NCBI GenBank assembly: GCA_009780185.1
Contig: WRAN01000002.1
Location: forward strand, 1-64,000
Direction of reading: 5' to 3'
Length of the DNA: 64,000 nt
DNA from: Defluviitaleaceae bacterium
GTDB taxonomy: Bacteria > Bacillota > Clostridia > Lachnospirales > WQUN01
The position numbers and the translations under genes are program-made. The notes under the pieces were generated by a model that was given only the letters and a program-made list of their open reading frames with translations, had not been told where the DNA came from and ran no database searches. How positions within the stretch are numbered: position 1 is the first letter of the stretch; each line of letters begins with the position of its first letter. This document shows, piece after piece, positions 18,476 to 25,607 of the stretch.

Positions 18476-20098
18476 ATGAGCAGTGGAATTTTTACCGTAC
18501 CAAATCCGGTTAATGAGCCAGTATTATCTTACGCCAAAGGCACACAAGAACGCCAAACCCTGGAAGCTGAACTAGCCTATCAGTCAGCCCAAGTATTGGA
18601 CATCCCTCTTATAATCGGGGGCAAGGAAATCCGTACCGCAAAAAAGGCTAAGTGCTGTATGCCTCATGACCATAGTCATGTACTGGCAGAGTACTCAATG
18701 GCAGGGCCAGAGGAACTAGAGGCTGCCAAAGATGCAGCAATGGCAGCAAAAGCCAGCTGGTATGCACTTCCCTGGGAACATAGAGCCGCGATTTTTTTGA
18801 AAGCGGCAGACTTGCTGGCAGGGCCATGGCGTCAGCGTCTTAACGCCGCAACAATGTTAGGCCAGAGCAAAACCGCCCACCAGGCAGAAATAGATTCCGC
18901 TTGCGAAATGGCTGACTTCCTGCGCTTTAACGTACATTTTGCACAAGAAATCTTCCAAAATCAGCCCATTAGTTCCCCAGGCATGTGGAACCGCATGGAA
19001 TATCGTCCGCTAAGCGGCTTTGTTGCTGCCATCAGCCCCTTTAACTTTACGGCAATTGGCGGCAATCTGCCCACAGCCCCGGCTATTATGGGTAACACCG
19101 TAGTATGGAAACCTGCTGGAACTGCCGTTCTTTCCAATTATCTGTTCTATCAATTGATGAAAGAAGCCGGACTGCCCGATGGTGTAATCAACTTCGTGCC
19201 TTGCAGTGGCCCTGATATGAGCGCCTATGTACTTACAGACCCACGGATGGCCGGATTCCACTTTACCGGCTCTACTGGGGTGTTTAATAGCTGCTGGAAG
19301 CTGGTTGGAGATAATATCCACAAATATGAAAGCTATCCAAGGCTGGTTGGGGAAACCGGAGGCAAGGACTTTATCTTTGCCCATAATACTGCCCCGGTTA
19401 CACCCCTTGTGACTGCAATGGTACGCGGAGCCTTTGAATATCAAGGGCAAAAATGCTCTGCCGCGTCTCGCGCTTACATCCCAGAAAGCCTGTGGCCCGA
19501 AGTAAAGGAAGGACTTTTGGCCGAAGCTGCTAAGATTAAAGTAGGAGATGTAAGGGATTTCTCCAACTTTATGGGGGCAGTAATCGACGAACGGGCTTAT
19601 AAATCCATTGTTGAATATATAGACTATGCCAAAGCTTCCCCAGATGCTGAAATTCTTTGCGGAGAATGTAAGCCGGAACAGGGCTGGTTTATCACCCCTA
19701 CAGTGATACTTGCTAAAACCCCAGATTTTAAAACTATGGTAGAAGAAATCTTTGGGCCGGTGTTGACGATATATGTATATCCTGATGACAAGTTTGAAGA
19801 TACGCTGGAGAGTTGCTGCACTGTATCCCCATATGCTTTAACCGGGGCAATCTTCTCCCAAGATAGAAATATGCTGGCATATATGGAAACAAAGCTGGCT
19901 GATGCCGCTGGCAACTTTTACATTAATGATAAGCCCACCGGGGCAGTGGTAGGGCAGCAGCCCTTTGGCGGTAGCCGCGCCTCCGGTACCAACGATAAGG
20001 CCGGAAGCGTACTAAATCTACTACGTTGGACCAGCCCCCGCACTATAAAGGAAACCTTCATCCCGGCGGAGTCTGTGCCATATCCGTTTATGGATTAA
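18476..20098 (+). CDS. pruA: 1-pyrroline-5-carboxylate dehydrogenase
   Basis: ALDH fold: ISPFNFTAIGGNLPTAPAIMGNTVVWKPA, ETGGKDFIFAH, YQGQKCSAASRAYIP (catalytic C), QQPFGGSRASGTNDKAG. Confidence 0.92.
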   Translation: MSSGIFTVPNPVNEPVLSYAKGTQERQTLEAELAYQSAQVLDIPLIIGGKEIRTAKKAKCCMPHDHSHVLAEYSMAGPEELEAAKDAAMAAKASWYALPWEHRAAIFLKAADLLAGPWRQRLNAATMLGQSKTAHQAEIDSACEMADFLRFNVHFAQEIFQNQPISSPGMWNRMEYRPLSGFVAAISPFNFTAIGGNLPTAPAIMGNTVVWKPAGTAVLSNYLFYQLMKEAGLPDGVINFVPCSGPDMSAYVLTDPRMAGFHFTGSTGVFNSCWKLVGDNIHKYESYPRLVGETGGKDFIFAHNTAPVTPLVTAMVRGAFEYQGQKCSAASRAYIPESLWPEVKEGLLAEAAKIKVGDVRDFSNFMGAVIDERAYKSIVEYIDYAKASPDAEILCGECKPEQGWFITPTVILAKTPDFKTMVEEIFGPVLTIYVYPDDKFEDTLESCCTVSPYALTGAIFSQDRNMLAYMETKLADAAGNFYINDKPTGAVVGQQPFGGSRASGTNDKAGSVLNLLRWTSPRTIKETFIPAESVPYPFMD

Positions 20099-20125: not shown

Positions 20126-20175
20126 AAAAACGCGCATATCATCCTATGTTTTCAATGGATGATATGCGCGTTTTT
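20126..20175. terminator. Bidirectional intrinsic terminator
   Basis: AAAAACGCGCATATCATCC-tatgttttcaat-GGATGATATGCGCGTTTTT. Confidence 0.9.
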
Positions 20176-20192: not shown

Positions 20193-21128
20193 TTAAATAT
20201 AAAAAACAATTCCTTTTTCTTGCTCTGCTTTGTTCATCCAACTTGTAATCCAATCAAGCTGTTTGTCTTCAAAATCATCTGGATTACAATCAATGCCGTA
20301 AATCTCAACTATTGTTGCTTGTAACTGGAAATGATAAATTACTTGAAAATAGTAAAACGCTTGGATTTCTTCTTCTGTAAGATTACGGTGTTTCATGTAA
20401 CCTTTCAGAAAATGTTGCAATGATAATTCTGATTCATGAAATTTCTCATCACTGTACGCAAAATAATCTGTTTCATTGCAAAACAAAGTAATATCATACA
20501 TCGGGAAGCCATTGCATGATGTGTCAAAATCTAACACATACAGTTTGCCATTATCAGATTTCATTATATTTCCACTATATAAATCACAATGACAAAACCC
20601 CTTAGGGAGATCTTTGACTTTTCCCCAAAGCATATTCCCCAACCGCTCGTACTCGCCTACTGTATGGTCATTTTTACTGCGAAGAATATCTACATACCTG
20701 TCTATGAAAAAATGTTTATCTCTGTTTTTTAATTCTTTCGGATATGATTCCATAATATTGTGAAGTTTAGCAATCAATTCGCCAACGTTTTCAATGTCAC
20801 CGTTACTAGGCTCTTTACCTTCGATATATTCATATAAAACGAGAAGATTTATTTTACCATCGGTTTTTCTTGTAATAAAAGACTGATCGTCTTTTGTAAA
20901 AACAATTGGGGGAACCGCGAAATTGCAAACTTGTAAGAATGTATGTATATCAATTGCCTGATAAGCAGTAGCCAACATTTCAGGCCTGATGACCCTTAGA
21001 AAATACTTATCTTCATTCGAAAAAACAATATATGATAAACTCCCTCCATCTCTATGAAAAGTCGCATCAGTAAAGATTTTTTCATAGTTATTGTTGAGGA
21101 TTTCAAGCAATTCTTGCTTTTCTATCAT
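20193..21128 (-). CDS. Aminoglycoside/homoserine-kinase-type phosphotransferase (APH superfamily)
   Basis: FCHCDLYSGNIM (Brenner motif) and YVLDFDTSCNGFPMYD. Start set to MIEKQELL. Confidence 0.8.
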   Translation of the reverse strand: MIEKQELLEILNNNYEKIFTDATFHRDGGSLSYIVFSNEDKYFLRVIRPEMLATAYQAIDIHTFLQVCNFAVPPIVFTKDDQSFITRKTDGKINLLVLYEYIEGKEPSNGDIENVGELIAKLHNIMESYPKELKNRDKHFFIDRYVDILRSKNDHTVGEYERLGNMLWGKVKDLPKGFCHCDLYSGNIMKSDNGKLYVLDFDTSCNGFPMYDITLFCNETDYFAYSDEKFHESELSLQHFLKGYMKHRNLTEEEIQAFYYFQVIYHFQLQATIVEIYGIDCNPDDFEDKQLDWITSWMNKAEQEKGIVFYI

Positions 21129-21236
21129 ATTAGCAATCTCCTGTACATGTATATATTTTCTAAATAAAGGGTACAGCAAACATTAACGCGGAGCAAATAA
21201 AAAATGGTTATATATATATGGTTACAAACTAAAAAC

Positions 21237-21281
21237 CATAACACAATTACGCAGATTTCGTGTTATGTTTATGGGTTTCTG
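21237..21281 (-). repeat. Cassette-associated palindromic element A
   Basis: CATAACAC-N15-GTGTTATG hairpin followed by GGGTTTCTG, 11 bp 3' of the DUF998 stop codon. Confidence 0.5.
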
Positions 21282-21291
21282 AAAAGGATGT

Positions 21292-21951
21292 TTATACCGT
21301 GATATTTTTATCGTCTTGCAACTTCCCTAGAAACAAGTACATTCCCAATATTGCAAGAAACCCATTTACGGATAAAAGATTGCTAAATCGTTGGAATATG
21401 CCAAAATATTCACTTGGGGCAACGCCTGTCCCTATCGCTCCTATAAACATAAGAACTAAAGATATCGTTGCACATACAGCAAGCGAAACGAACCTTTTTT
21501 TGCGGTATCCACCAATCATAATCAACACAAAGGATACAATCGAAAGGATGACAACCGGCGGCGTTACAACAAAATTGTGCATGATGTCTTGAAACGTTGC
21601 TCCAACGGCTCCGCTTTCCGAAAGGGGAAACATACCAAAACCGATATTTGATATCCACAACATAGTCGCAAACAGGTAAATTCCAAGCCGCAAAAGTTTA
21701 TTCAATTTGCCACGAATGGCAACACAAACCATCATAACGCAAACAGTTCCGGCGATTCCATACAAACCAGACAGTTGATGCCAAAGCGCAAGTGATGGTG
21801 CATTTGTCGTACTTAAATCGCTGACTGCTTGGCTCATCCAATCATAGCCTGGATAGGCAAGTGGAGCGAATATAACTGCCGCCGCATATGAAATGTAGCT
21901 TACTATACCTAGCAAGCCGAGCCAATGAATCAGTGTTTTTTTAGTTTCCAA
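21292..21951 (-). CDS. DUF998 family integral membrane protein
   Basis: Multiple TM; YPGYDWMSQAVSDLSTTNAPS motif. TTG start supported by GGAGGG SD. Confidence 0.7.
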   Translation of the reverse strand: METKKTLIHWLGLLGIVSYISYAAAVIFAPLAYPGYDWMSQAVSDLSTTNAPSLALWHQLSGLYGIAGTVCVMMVCVAIRGKLNKLLRLGIYLFATMLWISNIGFGMFPLSESGAVGATFQDIMHNFVVTPPVVILSIVSFVLIMIGGYRKKRFVSLAVCATISLVLMFIGAIGTGVAPSEYFGIFQRFSNLLSVNGFLAILGMYLFLGKLQDDKNITV

Positions 21952-22030
21952 TGTAATGCCCTCCTGAATACTCCTAATATAAATTCCTCGCAACTCCACG
22001 CAACAACAATAGCATATCTGCCTGCATTAT

Positions 22031-22080
22031 GTTTACACGATACATACAACTGATACACGTTTCTTAGATTCGTGTTTAAG
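22031..22080 (-). repeat. Cassette-associated palindromic element B
   Basis: gtttacacgatacatacaactgatacacgtttcttagattcgtgtttaag, 30 bp 3' of the VOC gene. Confidence 0.5.
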
Positions 22081-22109
22081 TACCACAATTCAGTATCATG
22101 CCTATACTG

Positions 22110-22601
22110 TTATATCTTTGGGCAAGCCAACCCTTCCTCTGCCCATCTAATGCATAAATCACAACCTGGAGTTTCATTTATCGGCACACAAGCCAAGCAA
22201 CCTTCGGGAGGAGCAAGCATGGGGAGGGAAATAAACCACTTAACTCCATATTTGTCCACTATATCAGCTGCACATGGACTCCAAGGTAATGGTCTGGGCA
22301 AGTCTATGATTTTGCCTCCGTCAGCCGTAAGCACATCAACAGCATGTCTTACCTTATCCTCAGTTGCCAATTCAACATTTGCGTATAGCCTGTGGCGTGA
22401 CTTAAATGTGGTCTGTGCCAACATGCCATGCTCGTCGGCTGATGTTTCAAAGATATTGTAGAAATGCTCGCCGTTAAGACTCAAAATCTCATATCCATGG
22501 TGTGGGATTGCTTTCATACCCAATGCGTTTATATAAAAATCAAACGCCTCTTTTACGTTTTCAACAAATAATGTTCCTTCAAGACTAGTGAATTTTGCCA
22601 C
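22110..22601 (-). CDS. VOC/glyoxalase superfamily protein (PhnB-like)
   Basis: LEGTLFVENVKEAFDFYINALGMKAIPHHGYEILSL; DKYGVKWFISLP. Confidence 0.7.
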   Translation of the reverse strand: MAKFTSLEGTLFVENVKEAFDFYINALGMKAIPHHGYEILSLNGEHFYNIFETSADEHGMLAQTTFKSRHRLYANVELATEDKVRHAVDVLTADGGKIIDLPRPLPWSPCAADIVDKYGVKWFISLPMLAPPEGCLACVPINETPGCDLCIRWAEEGLACPKI

Positions 22602-22884
22602 AATTAACCCCTCCTCATAAATTTTCTACGCATTATGATTGTAGTATGACCATATATAGTTTGCACCAAAAACACAAAAGGCGTTTGGAAAAGTGTAATT
22701 GTATCAACACTGCCATCCAAACGCCCGTCTTAACGTTGACTTTGATACAATTGTAGACAGCCTAAAAAGCCTTGTTTCTTGGCTTTTGACCTATGCCACG
22801 CCTATTTCATTTATAAATAGCACTCCCGTACGGCAATTTTTCATAGAATAACTATTTTACCAATGCACCCCTATATAAAACAAT

Positions 22885-22944
22885 AGCACGATACTCTCAG
22901 CGTAAACAACGTTTCTTAGTTTCGTGTTAAGGTTCTGATTTCTG
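22885..22944 (-). repeat. Cassette-associated palindromic element C
   Basis: gcacgatactctcagcgtaaacaacgtttcttagtttcgtgttaaggttctgatttctg, 14 bp 3' of the kinase gene. Confidence 0.55.
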
Positions 22945-22957
22945 GCGAAAATGCTCA

Positions 22958-23476
22958 TTATTGGGGATAGTAAATTATATTGTAAATAGTATCGACTACT
23001 TGTTCTGGCGTAACATCGTCAGTAACAATTTTCTTGTATCCGCTTTTATCCATGTTTTCAAAATTTGGTCTTGTTTGTAATGCGTGTTCCCATGCTACAT
23101 TTTTTCGCACACCACCATTTATATCTTTTTGAAGTCTTGCTATTAATGTGCTTTCAGAGCAGATAAGTGTGAATTTGTGCAAATTATATTGAGTATTCTT
23201 TAACATTGAAAGCACATTTTCTGTCATGCCCTCTCTATGCAAAACCCAACCAAAGATTACGTTTTCATATACAGAGCAATCTAAATAACTATTCAGCAGA
23301 TAACTCATATTTGTCATTGCCATCGTTTCTGTTTCTTTTGTTACTTGCCATGGATTAGCATACCAGCACCAATCGCCGTCCAGGAAAACAGCTTTAGGCA
23401 ATAACTCCAATAACATTTTACATGTAGTCGTTTTTCCACCACCCATTACACCATTTATAAATATTAAATTTTTCAC
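22958..23476 (-). CDS. P-loop nucleoside/shikimate-kinase-like AAA protein
   Basis: MKNLIFINGVMGGGKTTTCKMLLELLPKAVFLDGDWCWYANPW Walker A. Confidence 0.7.
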   Translation of the reverse strand: MKNLIFINGVMGGGKTTTCKMLLELLPKAVFLDGDWCWYANPWQVTKETETMAMTNMSYLLNSYLDCSVYENVIFGWVLHREGMTENVLSMLKNTQYNLHKFTLICSESTLIARLQKDINGGVRKNVAWEHALQTRPNFENMDKSGYKKIVTDDVTPEQVVDTIYNIIYYPQ

Positions 23477-23518
23477 TTTATAGCACCTCTGTTACTATAA
23501 ATTTTCACACAATTTACT

Positions 23519-23783
23519 CACCAAGCATATCGCACATCATACTTATGGATATTTTCATCGACAGTCAAAATTGTCATATCTTCAACTTTTGCAGTAGCAA
23601 CAAGTAGTCTGTCAAATGGATCTCTATGGATGAACGGTAATGTTTCAACAATTTCAATATGCCTTTGCATTACTGGAAGCTGGGAAACAGGCATTTGAAG
23701 GCGAAATACCTATTATATCGCAGATGTTATCAAATTGTTGCTTTGTTATTGCATCAATGCGAGTAGAAACTTGAATTGACATC
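23519..23783 (-). pseudogene. Toxin-antitoxin scar: RelB/DinJ-like antitoxin N-terminus abutting a PIN/VapC-like toxin C-terminus
   Basis: Manual translation: MSIQVSTRIDAITKQQFDNICDIIGISPSNA then, in another frame, ...QRHIEIVETLPFIHRDPFDRLLVATAKVEDMTILTVDENIHKYDVRYAW*. Both partners are truncated. Confidence 0.65.
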
Positions 23784-23854
23784 CAATTAGCTCCTTTTGG
23801 TTTCATTTGTTATTACGCTATCATTTTGTTAGCATATAGTCAATAAGTGGATGC

Positions 23855-23880
23855 AAAAAAGGGTGCAAATTCTGCACCCA
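23855..23880 (-). terminator. Intrinsic terminator (minus strand)
   Basis: GGGTGCA-gaatt-TGCACCC followed by TTTTTT on the minus strand. Confidence 0.6.
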
Positions 23881-24000
23881 AACATTATGCGGCGTTTACT
23901 AACGTGCTACTGTATCCACCTTAACGTCATAACCCCCGGTTAAACGTTAACATCGATACATTCGCAAAACATCTCGTTTTCATTTGCATCCTTTGTGCGA

Positions 24001-24065
24001 CTTTTACACGAAACTATAACTTTCACACGATTTGCTTAGGTTTTGTGTAAAGATTCTTATTTCTG
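24001..24065 (-). repeat. Cassette-associated palindromic element D
   Basis: cttttacacgaaactataactttcacacgatttgcttaggttttgtgtaaagattcttatttctg, 31 bp 3' of the second VOC gene. Confidence 0.55.
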
Positions 24066-24096
24066 AATAAAATGTTCATAATACGAAATTGTTACT

Positions 24097-24534
24097 TTAG
24101 CTGATCGCATTCTTATACGCAATAGATCCCAAACCGAGAATATTCCAGGTTACACCGAATTTATCTATAACTCTTCCATAGATATCTGCAAAGAATTCTT
24201 CGTGCAAATCCTCTAAAATTTCGCCTTCAACTTTTAGTTTATTAAAAATCCTCGTTGCTTCCTCTGCACCCTTAATTGCTAAATGCAATACGACATTATC
24301 AGAATGAACGAATGATGAATCAGATAACTTGTCACCAAAGTTTATCTTCAAATCACCAATCGTCATATTGCCCCAAGCGATTTTATCCTTACCTGATTCA
24401 CACAAGGGATTATTGGGGTCGGTCGGAATTTCGCCATAAGTCGTCATGCTAAACTTTAATTGGAATATTTCCGCATAAAATTCCATGGCTTTGCGGCTGC
24501 TACCATTGACAGTGAGCATTATTTGAGCTTTCAT
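24097..24534 (-). CDS. VOC/PhnB-like glyoxalase superfamily protein
   Basis: MKAQIMLTVNGSSRKAMEFYAEIFQLKFSMTTYGEIP...DKFGVTWNIL. Start set by GAGAGAGG SD. Confidence 0.75.
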   Translation of the reverse strand: MKAQIMLTVNGSSRKAMEFYAEIFQLKFSMTTYGEIPTDPNNPLCESGKDKIAWGNMTIGDLKINFGDKLSDSSFVHSDNVVLHLAIKGAEEATRIFNKLKVEGEILEDLHEEFFADIYGRVIDKFGVTWNILGLGSIAYKNAIS

Positions 24535-24652
24535 GAATATAATATCCTCTCTCTTCGTAATATGAATCATCTTCGTAACTCCATGCTACGACTATAGCAT
24601 ATCTACATATATTTATGCATCCAAAAATAAAATTGACGTTGGATACCGTGCA

Positions 24653-24717
24653 CTTAAACACGAAACCAGAACATCAACACGATTACATCGGTTCCGTGTT
24701 AAGATTCTGGTTTCTGA
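24653..24717 (-). repeat. Cassette-associated palindromic element E
   Basis: cttaaacacgaaaccagaacatcaacacgattacatcggttccgtgttaagattctggtttctg, 7 bp 3' of a 36-aa ORF. Confidence 0.55.
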
Positions 24718-24724
24718 AGAATAC

Positions 24725-24835
24725 TTATAGCAAGCTATCACCAATAATTTTCGTGGAGATATACTCAAAGGTCGTATCTTCGCACAAGTCCTCTCCTTCT
24801 ATGAGTAGCTGTACATCAAACTTAAATTCAATCAT
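24725..24835 (-). CDS. Hypothetical 36-aa protein
   Basis: MIEFKFDVQLLIEGEDLCEDTTFEYISTKIIGDSLL*, preceded by GAAGGAGAAAGACT (good SD). Confidence 0.4.
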   Translation of the reverse strand: MIEFKFDVQLLIEGEDLCEDTTFEYISTKIIGDSLL

Positions 24836-24878: not shown

Positions 24879-25217
24879 CTAATTTGGCTGAAACACCAAA
24901 ATAACCTTTTCTAAAAGTTCGTTTATCATGTTAGCAGGCACGCTCTCTACAAACTCAAAATTTCTGGCGTTATAGTCTATCGTCACAACTTGGTCGAGCA
25001 ACACAGCCCCTGTTATTTTTGTGCCTCGTAGCTTGATATACAGCGGATAATTGCGCATAGTACTGCTTATTGGGGCAAATACGGCAATATTGGCTATGTC
25101 GCTTATAATCTTGTTGCTTAAACAGATATAAGGGCGGTAGCCTTGTTGTTCATGCCCCTGCTTTGGATTAAGATTGATTTTTATTATATCGCCTTGTACA
25201 GGAACACCGTTTACCAT
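24879..25217 (-). CDS. mazF: MazF/PemK-type toxin
   Basis: VPVQGDIIKINLNPKQGHEQQGYRPYICLSN; GAVLLDQVVTIDYNARN; overlaps the antitoxin gene. Confidence 0.85.
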   Translation of the reverse strand: MVNGVPVQGDIIKINLNPKQGHEQQGYRPYICLSNKIISDIANIAVFAPISSTMRNYPLYIKLRGTKITGAVLLDQVVTIDYNARNFEFVESVPANMINELLEKVILVFQPN

Positions 25218-25468
25218 TTTTCGTTCCCCACCGCTTCGCCCAAATCGTTTAATTCTGATTGAAATATGTCGCCGTTATAATCTTTGAAGAGATACTCCAA
25301 TGTTCCCTGCTTTGGTGTTGGAGTCCTTGTCAAAATAATCCTTCTATTTTCATCTACCTCAAAAAACAGCTTGTCGTTTAGGTTAATTTGAGCTTTTCTC
25401 AAAATCTCAACAGGCAAACGTATACCCTTGCTGTTGCCCCATTGCGATACAATCGTTGCTTCTTGCAT
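25211..25468 (-). CDS. mazE: MazE/AbrB-type antitoxin
   Basis: MQEATIVSQWGNSKGIRLPVEILRKAQINLNDKLFFEVDENRRIIL. Confidence 0.85.
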   Translation of the reverse strand: MQEATIVSQWGNSKGIRLPVEILRKAQINLNDKLFFEVDENRRIILTRTPTPKQGTLEYLFKDYNGDIFQSELNDLGEAVGNEKW

Positions 25469-25607
25469 ATTCTCAACTCCTTTTATCGTAGTATATCCAA
25501 TGCGTAGATACATCGTCAAATTAAATTATATGTCAGTATAGGCAATGTTTTTTCAACTCAATGCTGTACAATAAAATTACCGCGGGAAAGGAGGGCTTGA
25601 AGACATT

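Follow-up and report, generated by a model that had tools for sequence, protein, structure and literature searches.

The window, a 64,000-nt stretch of contig WRAN01000002.1 from a Defluviitaleaceae bacterium (draft genome of 2.55 Mb in 31 contigs, 84.5% complete), carries on its minus strand a run of small accessory genes, each followed by a copy of a palindromic element that we call P1. P1 occupies the opening ~70 nt of a 3′ module whose beginning lies at the stop codon of the gene, and comparison with other genomes gives the order of a whole unit as RH (the start of the unit), a promoter-like leader, a single gene or a pair, P1 where the coding sequence stops, ~150 nt of further sequence, and LH (the end of the 3′ module). 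Where one unit follows another, the LH of the first and the RH of the next form a junction site, LH-GGG-RH. Two models were used to find these elements, R1 for P1 and R2 for the junction site. In the window the array consists of the following features, in the direction of the genes; copies of P1 are numbered c1 to c5, and E-values for them refer to a profile made from 14 copies of other genomes.

24879-25519, minus: MazE/MazF-like pair upstream of c1 (Pfam PF02452, PF04014), probably the cargo of the first unit
24835-24725, minus: 36-aa open reading frame, confirmed present
24646-24735, minus: c1, P1 copy 3′ of the 36-aa frame (R1 90.8 bits; E=3.5e-21)
24097-24570, minus: VOC / 3-dmu-9_3-mt-like cassette gene (Pfam PF06983, PF00903)
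23993-24084, minus: c2, P1 copy after this VOC gene (R1 86.9 bits; E=1.9e-23)
23899-23966, minus: junction site LH-GGGG-RH between the c2 unit and the next (R2 70.1 bits, E=2e-13; this copy is in the training set)
22958-23476, minus: P-loop kinase-like (AAA_18) cassette gene (Pfam PF13238)
22880-22963, minus: c3, P1 copy after the P-loop gene (R1 59.5 bits; E=7.6e-17)
22721-22963, minus: complete 3′ module of c3, with P1, middle part and LH (profile matches 22781-22960, LH 22721-22789)
22688-22755, minus: junction site LH-GGG-RH between the c3 unit and the VOC unit, TTGTATCAAAGTCAACGTTAAGACGGGCGTTTGGATGGCAGTGTTGATACAA (R2 77.4 bits, E=3.1e-15; a training copy)
22602-22723, minus: 5′ module of the VOC unit, with RH, terminator-like tail and promoter-like leader (RH profile 30.8 bits; alignment of 26 leaders)
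22110-22601, minus: VOC (glyoxalase/bleomycin-resistance-like) cassette gene (Pfam PF00903)
22022-22110, minus: c4, degenerate P1 copy (R1 53.8 bits; E=4.7e-5)
21292-21999, minus: DUF998 membrane-protein cassette gene (Pfam PF06197)
21210-21300, minus: c5, P1 copy after the DUF998 gene and last recognisable element (R1 70.4 bits; E=1.6e-7)

The first-pass annotation of this DNA had described five related elements 3′ of five minus-strand reading frames, and its description holds in position as well as in kind: stop codons lie ~9, 31, 13, 29 and 10 nt from the CAGAAA-type start at the five copies. As the profile from other genomes, searched against all 64 kb, recovers all five with E from 1.9e-23 to 4.7e-5, these elements are not a product of chance; its remaining matches in the window are the same palindromes on the opposite strand and nothing else. 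Further R1 copies lie on contigs C8, C13 and C21 of the source genome. The window holds five P1 copies and two junction sites because, as judged from its sequence, the array is partly decayed. The module of c3 is the sole complete one and equals in length those of other genomes, while that of c2 is shortened by an internal deletion ahead of LH. Copy c1 has lost the remainder of its module along with LH and RH and is fused straight to the leader of the next unit (leader match 24650-24559 against loci L064, L051 and L050), c4 is fused in the same way, and c5 is cut off, with the rest of its module lost and no LH after it. No RH was found before the MazE/MazF-like pair. Between c2 and the P-loop gene, at 23515-23785, lie short frame-broken remnants that resemble an antitoxin/PIN-type pair; an intact RelB/PIN pair occurs in a cassette on contig C13 of the same genome (L048:7260-7966). 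Beyond the array, a perfect 19-bp inverted repeat at 20126-20175, AAAAACGCGCATATCATCC..GGATGATATGCGCGTTTTT, is likely a bidirectional terminator between the convergent genes 18476-20098 (plus) and 20193-21179 (minus).

The conserved part is much longer than the palindrome to which attention was first drawn, as the 3′ module mostly measures 228-244 nt. Its attachment to genes is close: among 34 P1 matches outside the window, 26 start within -25 to +60 nt of a same-strand stop codon, compared with 5% expected for random positions, several of those without a stop codon sit at contig ends, and the TAATAA of the module is often the stop codon itself. This bears out the proposed tie to gene 3′ ends. 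The P1 palindrome is present as described, while the good hairpin attributed to it is found in some copies only; c1 folds with z=-3.5, and c2, c3 and c4 fold no better than shuffled sequences. Base-pair covariation in the first six P1 copies showed no excess over shuffles. The joint between gene and module varies, which suggests that new genes come in through joints that lie at P1 or within it.

The 3′ module ends with LH, TTGTATCAAAGTYAACGTYAAYAC, and the next unit starts with RH, (G/C)GTTTGGATGGTGGGGTTGATACAAYNRCACG. In about half of 26 aligned copies, RH has behind it a terminator-like tail and then a leader similar to TTGGAT-N16-TATGCT..GGAGTTGCGAAGAAAATTTAT. Joined, they form a near-symmetric site of ~52 bp with two pairs of inverted boxes, TTGTATCAA..AACGTCAATAC-GGG-(G/C)GTTTGGATGG..TTGATACAA, of which the outer pair is TTGTATCAA / TTGATACAA in 15 aligned sites. 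The site can be folded into a stem, spacers and an inner stem, and shows little base-pair covariation.

The joint was mapped using two pairs of homologous cassettes that sit in different contexts, and in both the flank changes exactly at GGG. In the VOC cassette shared by loci L050 and L129 (93% identical), the match begins exactly at GGG, and upstream of it lies host sequence, AAATAAAAGGGG, in one and the LH of another unit, ..AATACGGGC, in the other. In the 3′ modules of L055 and L061 (86% identical, from different genera), the match ends exactly at GGG, beyond which an RH follows in one case and a host terminator in the other. The core of all 26 scored left ends contains GG, that of 23 contains GGG and that of none contains CCC, a tally partly conditioned on the G run that the RH profile includes. 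Sixteen of the 26 are fused directly to the LH of another unit in the same orientation, and at array starts GGG joins host sequence to RH. These alignments establish, as far as sequence can, that units share their ends and are joined head-to-tail through one GG(G). P1, which the first-pass annotation had taken for a recombination-like site, is thus not the joining point; the crossover lies in a separate, second palindromic site (22688-22755 and 23899-23966 in the window). The idea of gene cassettes has fared better, as we find single accessory genes in one orientation, shared ends, fixed junctions and exchange across genera. We consider it probable, at roughly three chances in four, that the array in the window, now partly decayed, belongs to a family of mobile single-gene cassettes that behaves as integron cassettes do without being an integron.

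The same ends could be read in another way. LH and RH, read from their outer ends, are similar inverted repeats, and GGG flanks each unit on both sides as a duplication would, so that units could be passenger-carrying non-autonomous transposons (mobile insertion cassettes) with ~24-bp terminal inverted repeats, a DDE transposase acting in trans and a 3-bp GGG target duplication, their arrays arising by adjacent repeated insertions. A passenger gene, no transposase, related inverted ends and movement in trans are indeed shared with mobile insertion cassettes and miniature inverted-repeat transposable elements (MITEs). A DDE enzyme that duplicates GGG would give the same flanks but not a fixed polarity, as it should insert either way in a target that is not palindromic, and the placement of 16 of 26 units directly behind another in the same orientation also speaks against it. 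Orientation-independent insertion with target duplication, as in MITEs, is not seen, the core being GG or GGG and never CCC. The fixed polarity of the GG core, the head-to-tail arrays with one shared GGG, and the 240-nt 3′ module also set these units apart from mobile insertion cassettes. No parent insertion sequence (IS) for the cassette ends was identified, and no IS database, DDE or Y1 family search was made. We regard this explanation as unlikely.

At the far end of an array, LH is often followed, across the GGG, by the rising arm of an intrinsic terminator of the host. Of 15 LH ends, 8 begin a perfect stem of 8 bp or more at GGGG; for GGGG control sites from these loci the figure is 15 of 821 (p=5e-10). 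The right end of L052 adds to these a 17-bp arm pair with one mismatch and a long loop. Both host flanks are known for L140 and L061; when rejoined they give GATGAAGCATAAAAAAAGGGGTTGTCTTGC..GCAAGACAACCCCTTAT and AACACTAAGGGGCTGTTGTCAACTGC..GCAGTTGGCAACAGCCCC, which are perfect terminators (z about -8.4), and cassette-free terminators of the same type occur elsewhere in genomes G028 and G025. Single units, too, are found inserted in host terminators. RH together with the bases that follow can be folded as a new terminator in L061 (z=-5.4) and L064 (z=-3.75), and not in L140 (z=-1.2). Group IIC introns likewise land at the stem-loops of intrinsic terminators or at attC sites (PMC7923331), and the terminator stem-loop is thus a landing place common to both. 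Unlike these introns, the units contain no intron RNA (for conserved parts such as domain V, Rfam gave no match in the window or, with E up to 1, at three loci of one unit each) or reverse transcriptase and carry arbitrary genes, and they insert at the 5′ base of the terminator stem, whereas the introns insert downstream of the stem. As a separate observation, a palindromic repeat of ~150 bp with arms GGGGCTGTCTCRTTAAG..CTTAAYGAGACAGCCCC and CCCGGG cores like those of repetitive extragenic palindromic (REP) elements follows or interrupts cassette junctions at L049 and L052 of genome G002, and looks like a MITE or REP family of its own.

Movement of the cassettes is indicated by near-identical copies in different genera: L051 (genus g1) and L057 (g8) are 96.3% identical, L126 (g1) and L136 (g2) 92.6%, and L059 (g12) and L127 (g1) 86%. 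The host gene adjoining the array in the window is only 79% and 75% identical to its two congener copies, and beside that gene nothing homologous to the array is present in either congener, so the array is not a syntenic feature shared with these relatives. These comparisons bear on a further explanation, that the elements are ordinary 3′-untranslated-region repeats of vertically inherited genes, with P1 as a terminator or mRNA-stabilising hairpin and no movement. The position of P1 at stop codons, its helix being the only one supported by RNAalifold, and the often terminator-like fold of RH with the bases after it would all suit such a role. P1 lacks a T-run, however, and the shared block extends ~150 nt past it, so that the elements do not fit a role as terminators alone; the cassettes found in two contexts, with flanks that switch exactly at GGG, contradict the explanation, and cross-genus cassette identity exceeds within-genus host-gene identity. 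It is, in our view, highly improbable.

The cargo is varied, with resistance-like enzymes and toxin-antitoxin pairs among it, and includes VOC, GNAT, chloramphenicol phosphotransferase-like and APH proteins, RelB/YafQ, RelB/PIN and MazEF pairs, AraC/Cass2-type regulators, ASCH, cupin, CHAP, HD and NUDIX proteins, methyltransferases, Imm51, bSEFIR and many proteins without a family. Anti-phage defence is represented too, by a gene of bSEFIR type (PADLOC E=3e-49) in the unit L125:1757-2959 (G001:C33). R1 matched 8 genomes among 392 from the order, and these 8 belong without exception to the family of the window. R2 matched 12 of the 38 genomes of that family; in a sample of 392 drawn from the whole class, it found none besides the window's own. 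Every named record that shows the RH pattern is a Defluviitaleaceae metagenome-assembled genome (MAG), and we take the sample names, Emb289 and Lab288, to denote termite-gut metagenomes. No similar DNA was found in phages and plasmids, one scan of IMG/VR gave no match, and the open-licence papers searched contained no description of the element. Arrays often lie near the end of a contig, where repeats that interrupt assembly would be expected. In genus g12, at L060 and L138 (G025) and L135 (G030), a further repeat family has an LH-like end, TTGTATCAAAATCAACGTCAAATAGGGG, and a different body that is 81-90% identical among copies; it is possibly a related mobile element.

Much of this recalls integron cassettes and clusters of attC sites lacking integron-integrases (CALINs): single accessory genes in one orientation, an imperfect palindromic site for each gene, comparable cargo including Cass2-type domains, exchange between lineages and, in the case of CALINs, arrays without a linked integrase. 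Most units have P1 and LH after the gene, as expected of co-oriented single-gene units with a 3′ recombination site, and the junction folds with stem, spacers and inner stem. A true but very divergent integron, its integrase lying outside the assembled part, could in principle give this picture, and was one of the readings first proposed. It is not borne out. Across 61 genomes from the family and order, TIGR02249 (IntI) gave no match that passed its curated cut-off. The absence of a canonical integron core, already remarked on in the window, is confirmed, in that the outer R″/R′ boxes of attC, RYYYAAC..GTTRRRY, are not present in the right arrangement and TTGTATCAA / TTGATACAA stand in their place. 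The crossover falls in the central GGG instead of at G^TT of the R′ box. Integron cassettes are mostly promoterless and expressed from Pc at attI; about half of the 26 units have a conserved, promoter-like leader from which they may be expressed. Both the separate 3′ hairpin (P1) and the insertion of single units into host terminators are unlike integrons. We judge an integron very improbable. In pdif modules, a trans-acting host recombinase, XerCD, acts on sites that enclose accessory or toxin-antitoxin genes, which are kinds of cargo also found here. Those sites are dif-like, with an 11-6-11 arrangement; the junction here, a ~52-bp double inverted repeat around GGG, does not look like a dif site, though the neighbourhood of the Xer gene did not reveal the dif of the host itself.

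The long non-coding 3′ block, conserved and of constant length, together with subterminal inverted repeats and a fixed core, also raises IS110/IS1111-type transposition, in which a guide RNA would be encoded in that block. PF01548 is absent from the seven main carriers (G000, G001, G002, G015, G025, G028 and G030), there is no common RNA fold beyond P1, and no covariation with the target flank was apparent by eye. This is the explanation to which we give the least credence.

Fixed GG polarity, co-orientation, near-symmetric arms and the tolerance of unrelated flanks lead us to infer that the cassettes likely move by conservative site-specific recombination, by a trans-acting enzyme and through an LH-GGG-RH circle. 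Such a recombinase would cut in the GG core and excise cassettes as circles bearing LH-GGG-RH; a circle would then be re-inserted either at another cassette junction, which would build up arrays, or at a terminator's GGGG. Orientation would be set by the asymmetry of the core, and RH with the bases after it may supply the upstream gene with a terminator again. The constancy of the GG core amid unrelated flanks suggests a short-core enzyme, serine-recombinase-like and less likely a tyrosine recombinase. When recombinase loci were taken genome-wide, no convincing site lay nearby, with one weak RH-like match (L160, E=0.011). Among tyrosine recombinases, a conserved Xer-like protein alone is common to several carriers. 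At L047:78-1664 (G000:C8), where a cassette 3′ module breaks off, there is a large serine recombinase gene (529 aa), and here another integrative element seems to have been inserted into the array.

Several points weigh against a mobile cassette family of this kind. No recombinase was found that can be linked to the cassettes: the neighbourhood of other copies, where the first-pass annotation had suggested looking for a tyrosine recombinase, yielded none near arrays but the serine recombinase whose element interrupts an array, and no dedicated recombinase subgroup, serine recombinases included, is common to the carriers. The simple hairpin is missing at 7 of 15 right ends. A search with joined flanks did not reveal a precisely empty orthologous site, and the terminator at L140 is not conserved in congeners. 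No circle was seen among the genomes, every one of which is a draft MAG. Lastly, some shared cassettes lose homology near the gene and not at GGG, and ordinary recombination therefore also reshuffles cassettes.

Integrons are the best-known stockpilers of single-gene cassettes, and in Firmicutes complete ones hardly occur: a published survey reports one (PMC9024848). We tentatively propose, at somewhat less than even odds and from sequence comparison, that the units described here represent an integron-independent cassette system with a recombinase and a type of site that are both new, by which single genes are captured, stacked and expressed, intrinsic terminators serve as landing places and the terminator of the upstream gene is rebuilt. 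If so, integrons would have an unrelated counterpart with similar cargo, which would show that such logic evolved more than once, and the system would provide a gene-shuffling site in a Gram-positive lineage. Targeting of terminators would explain how cassettes insert without breaking genes, and the exact sequence of the site makes a search for the enzyme directly testable.

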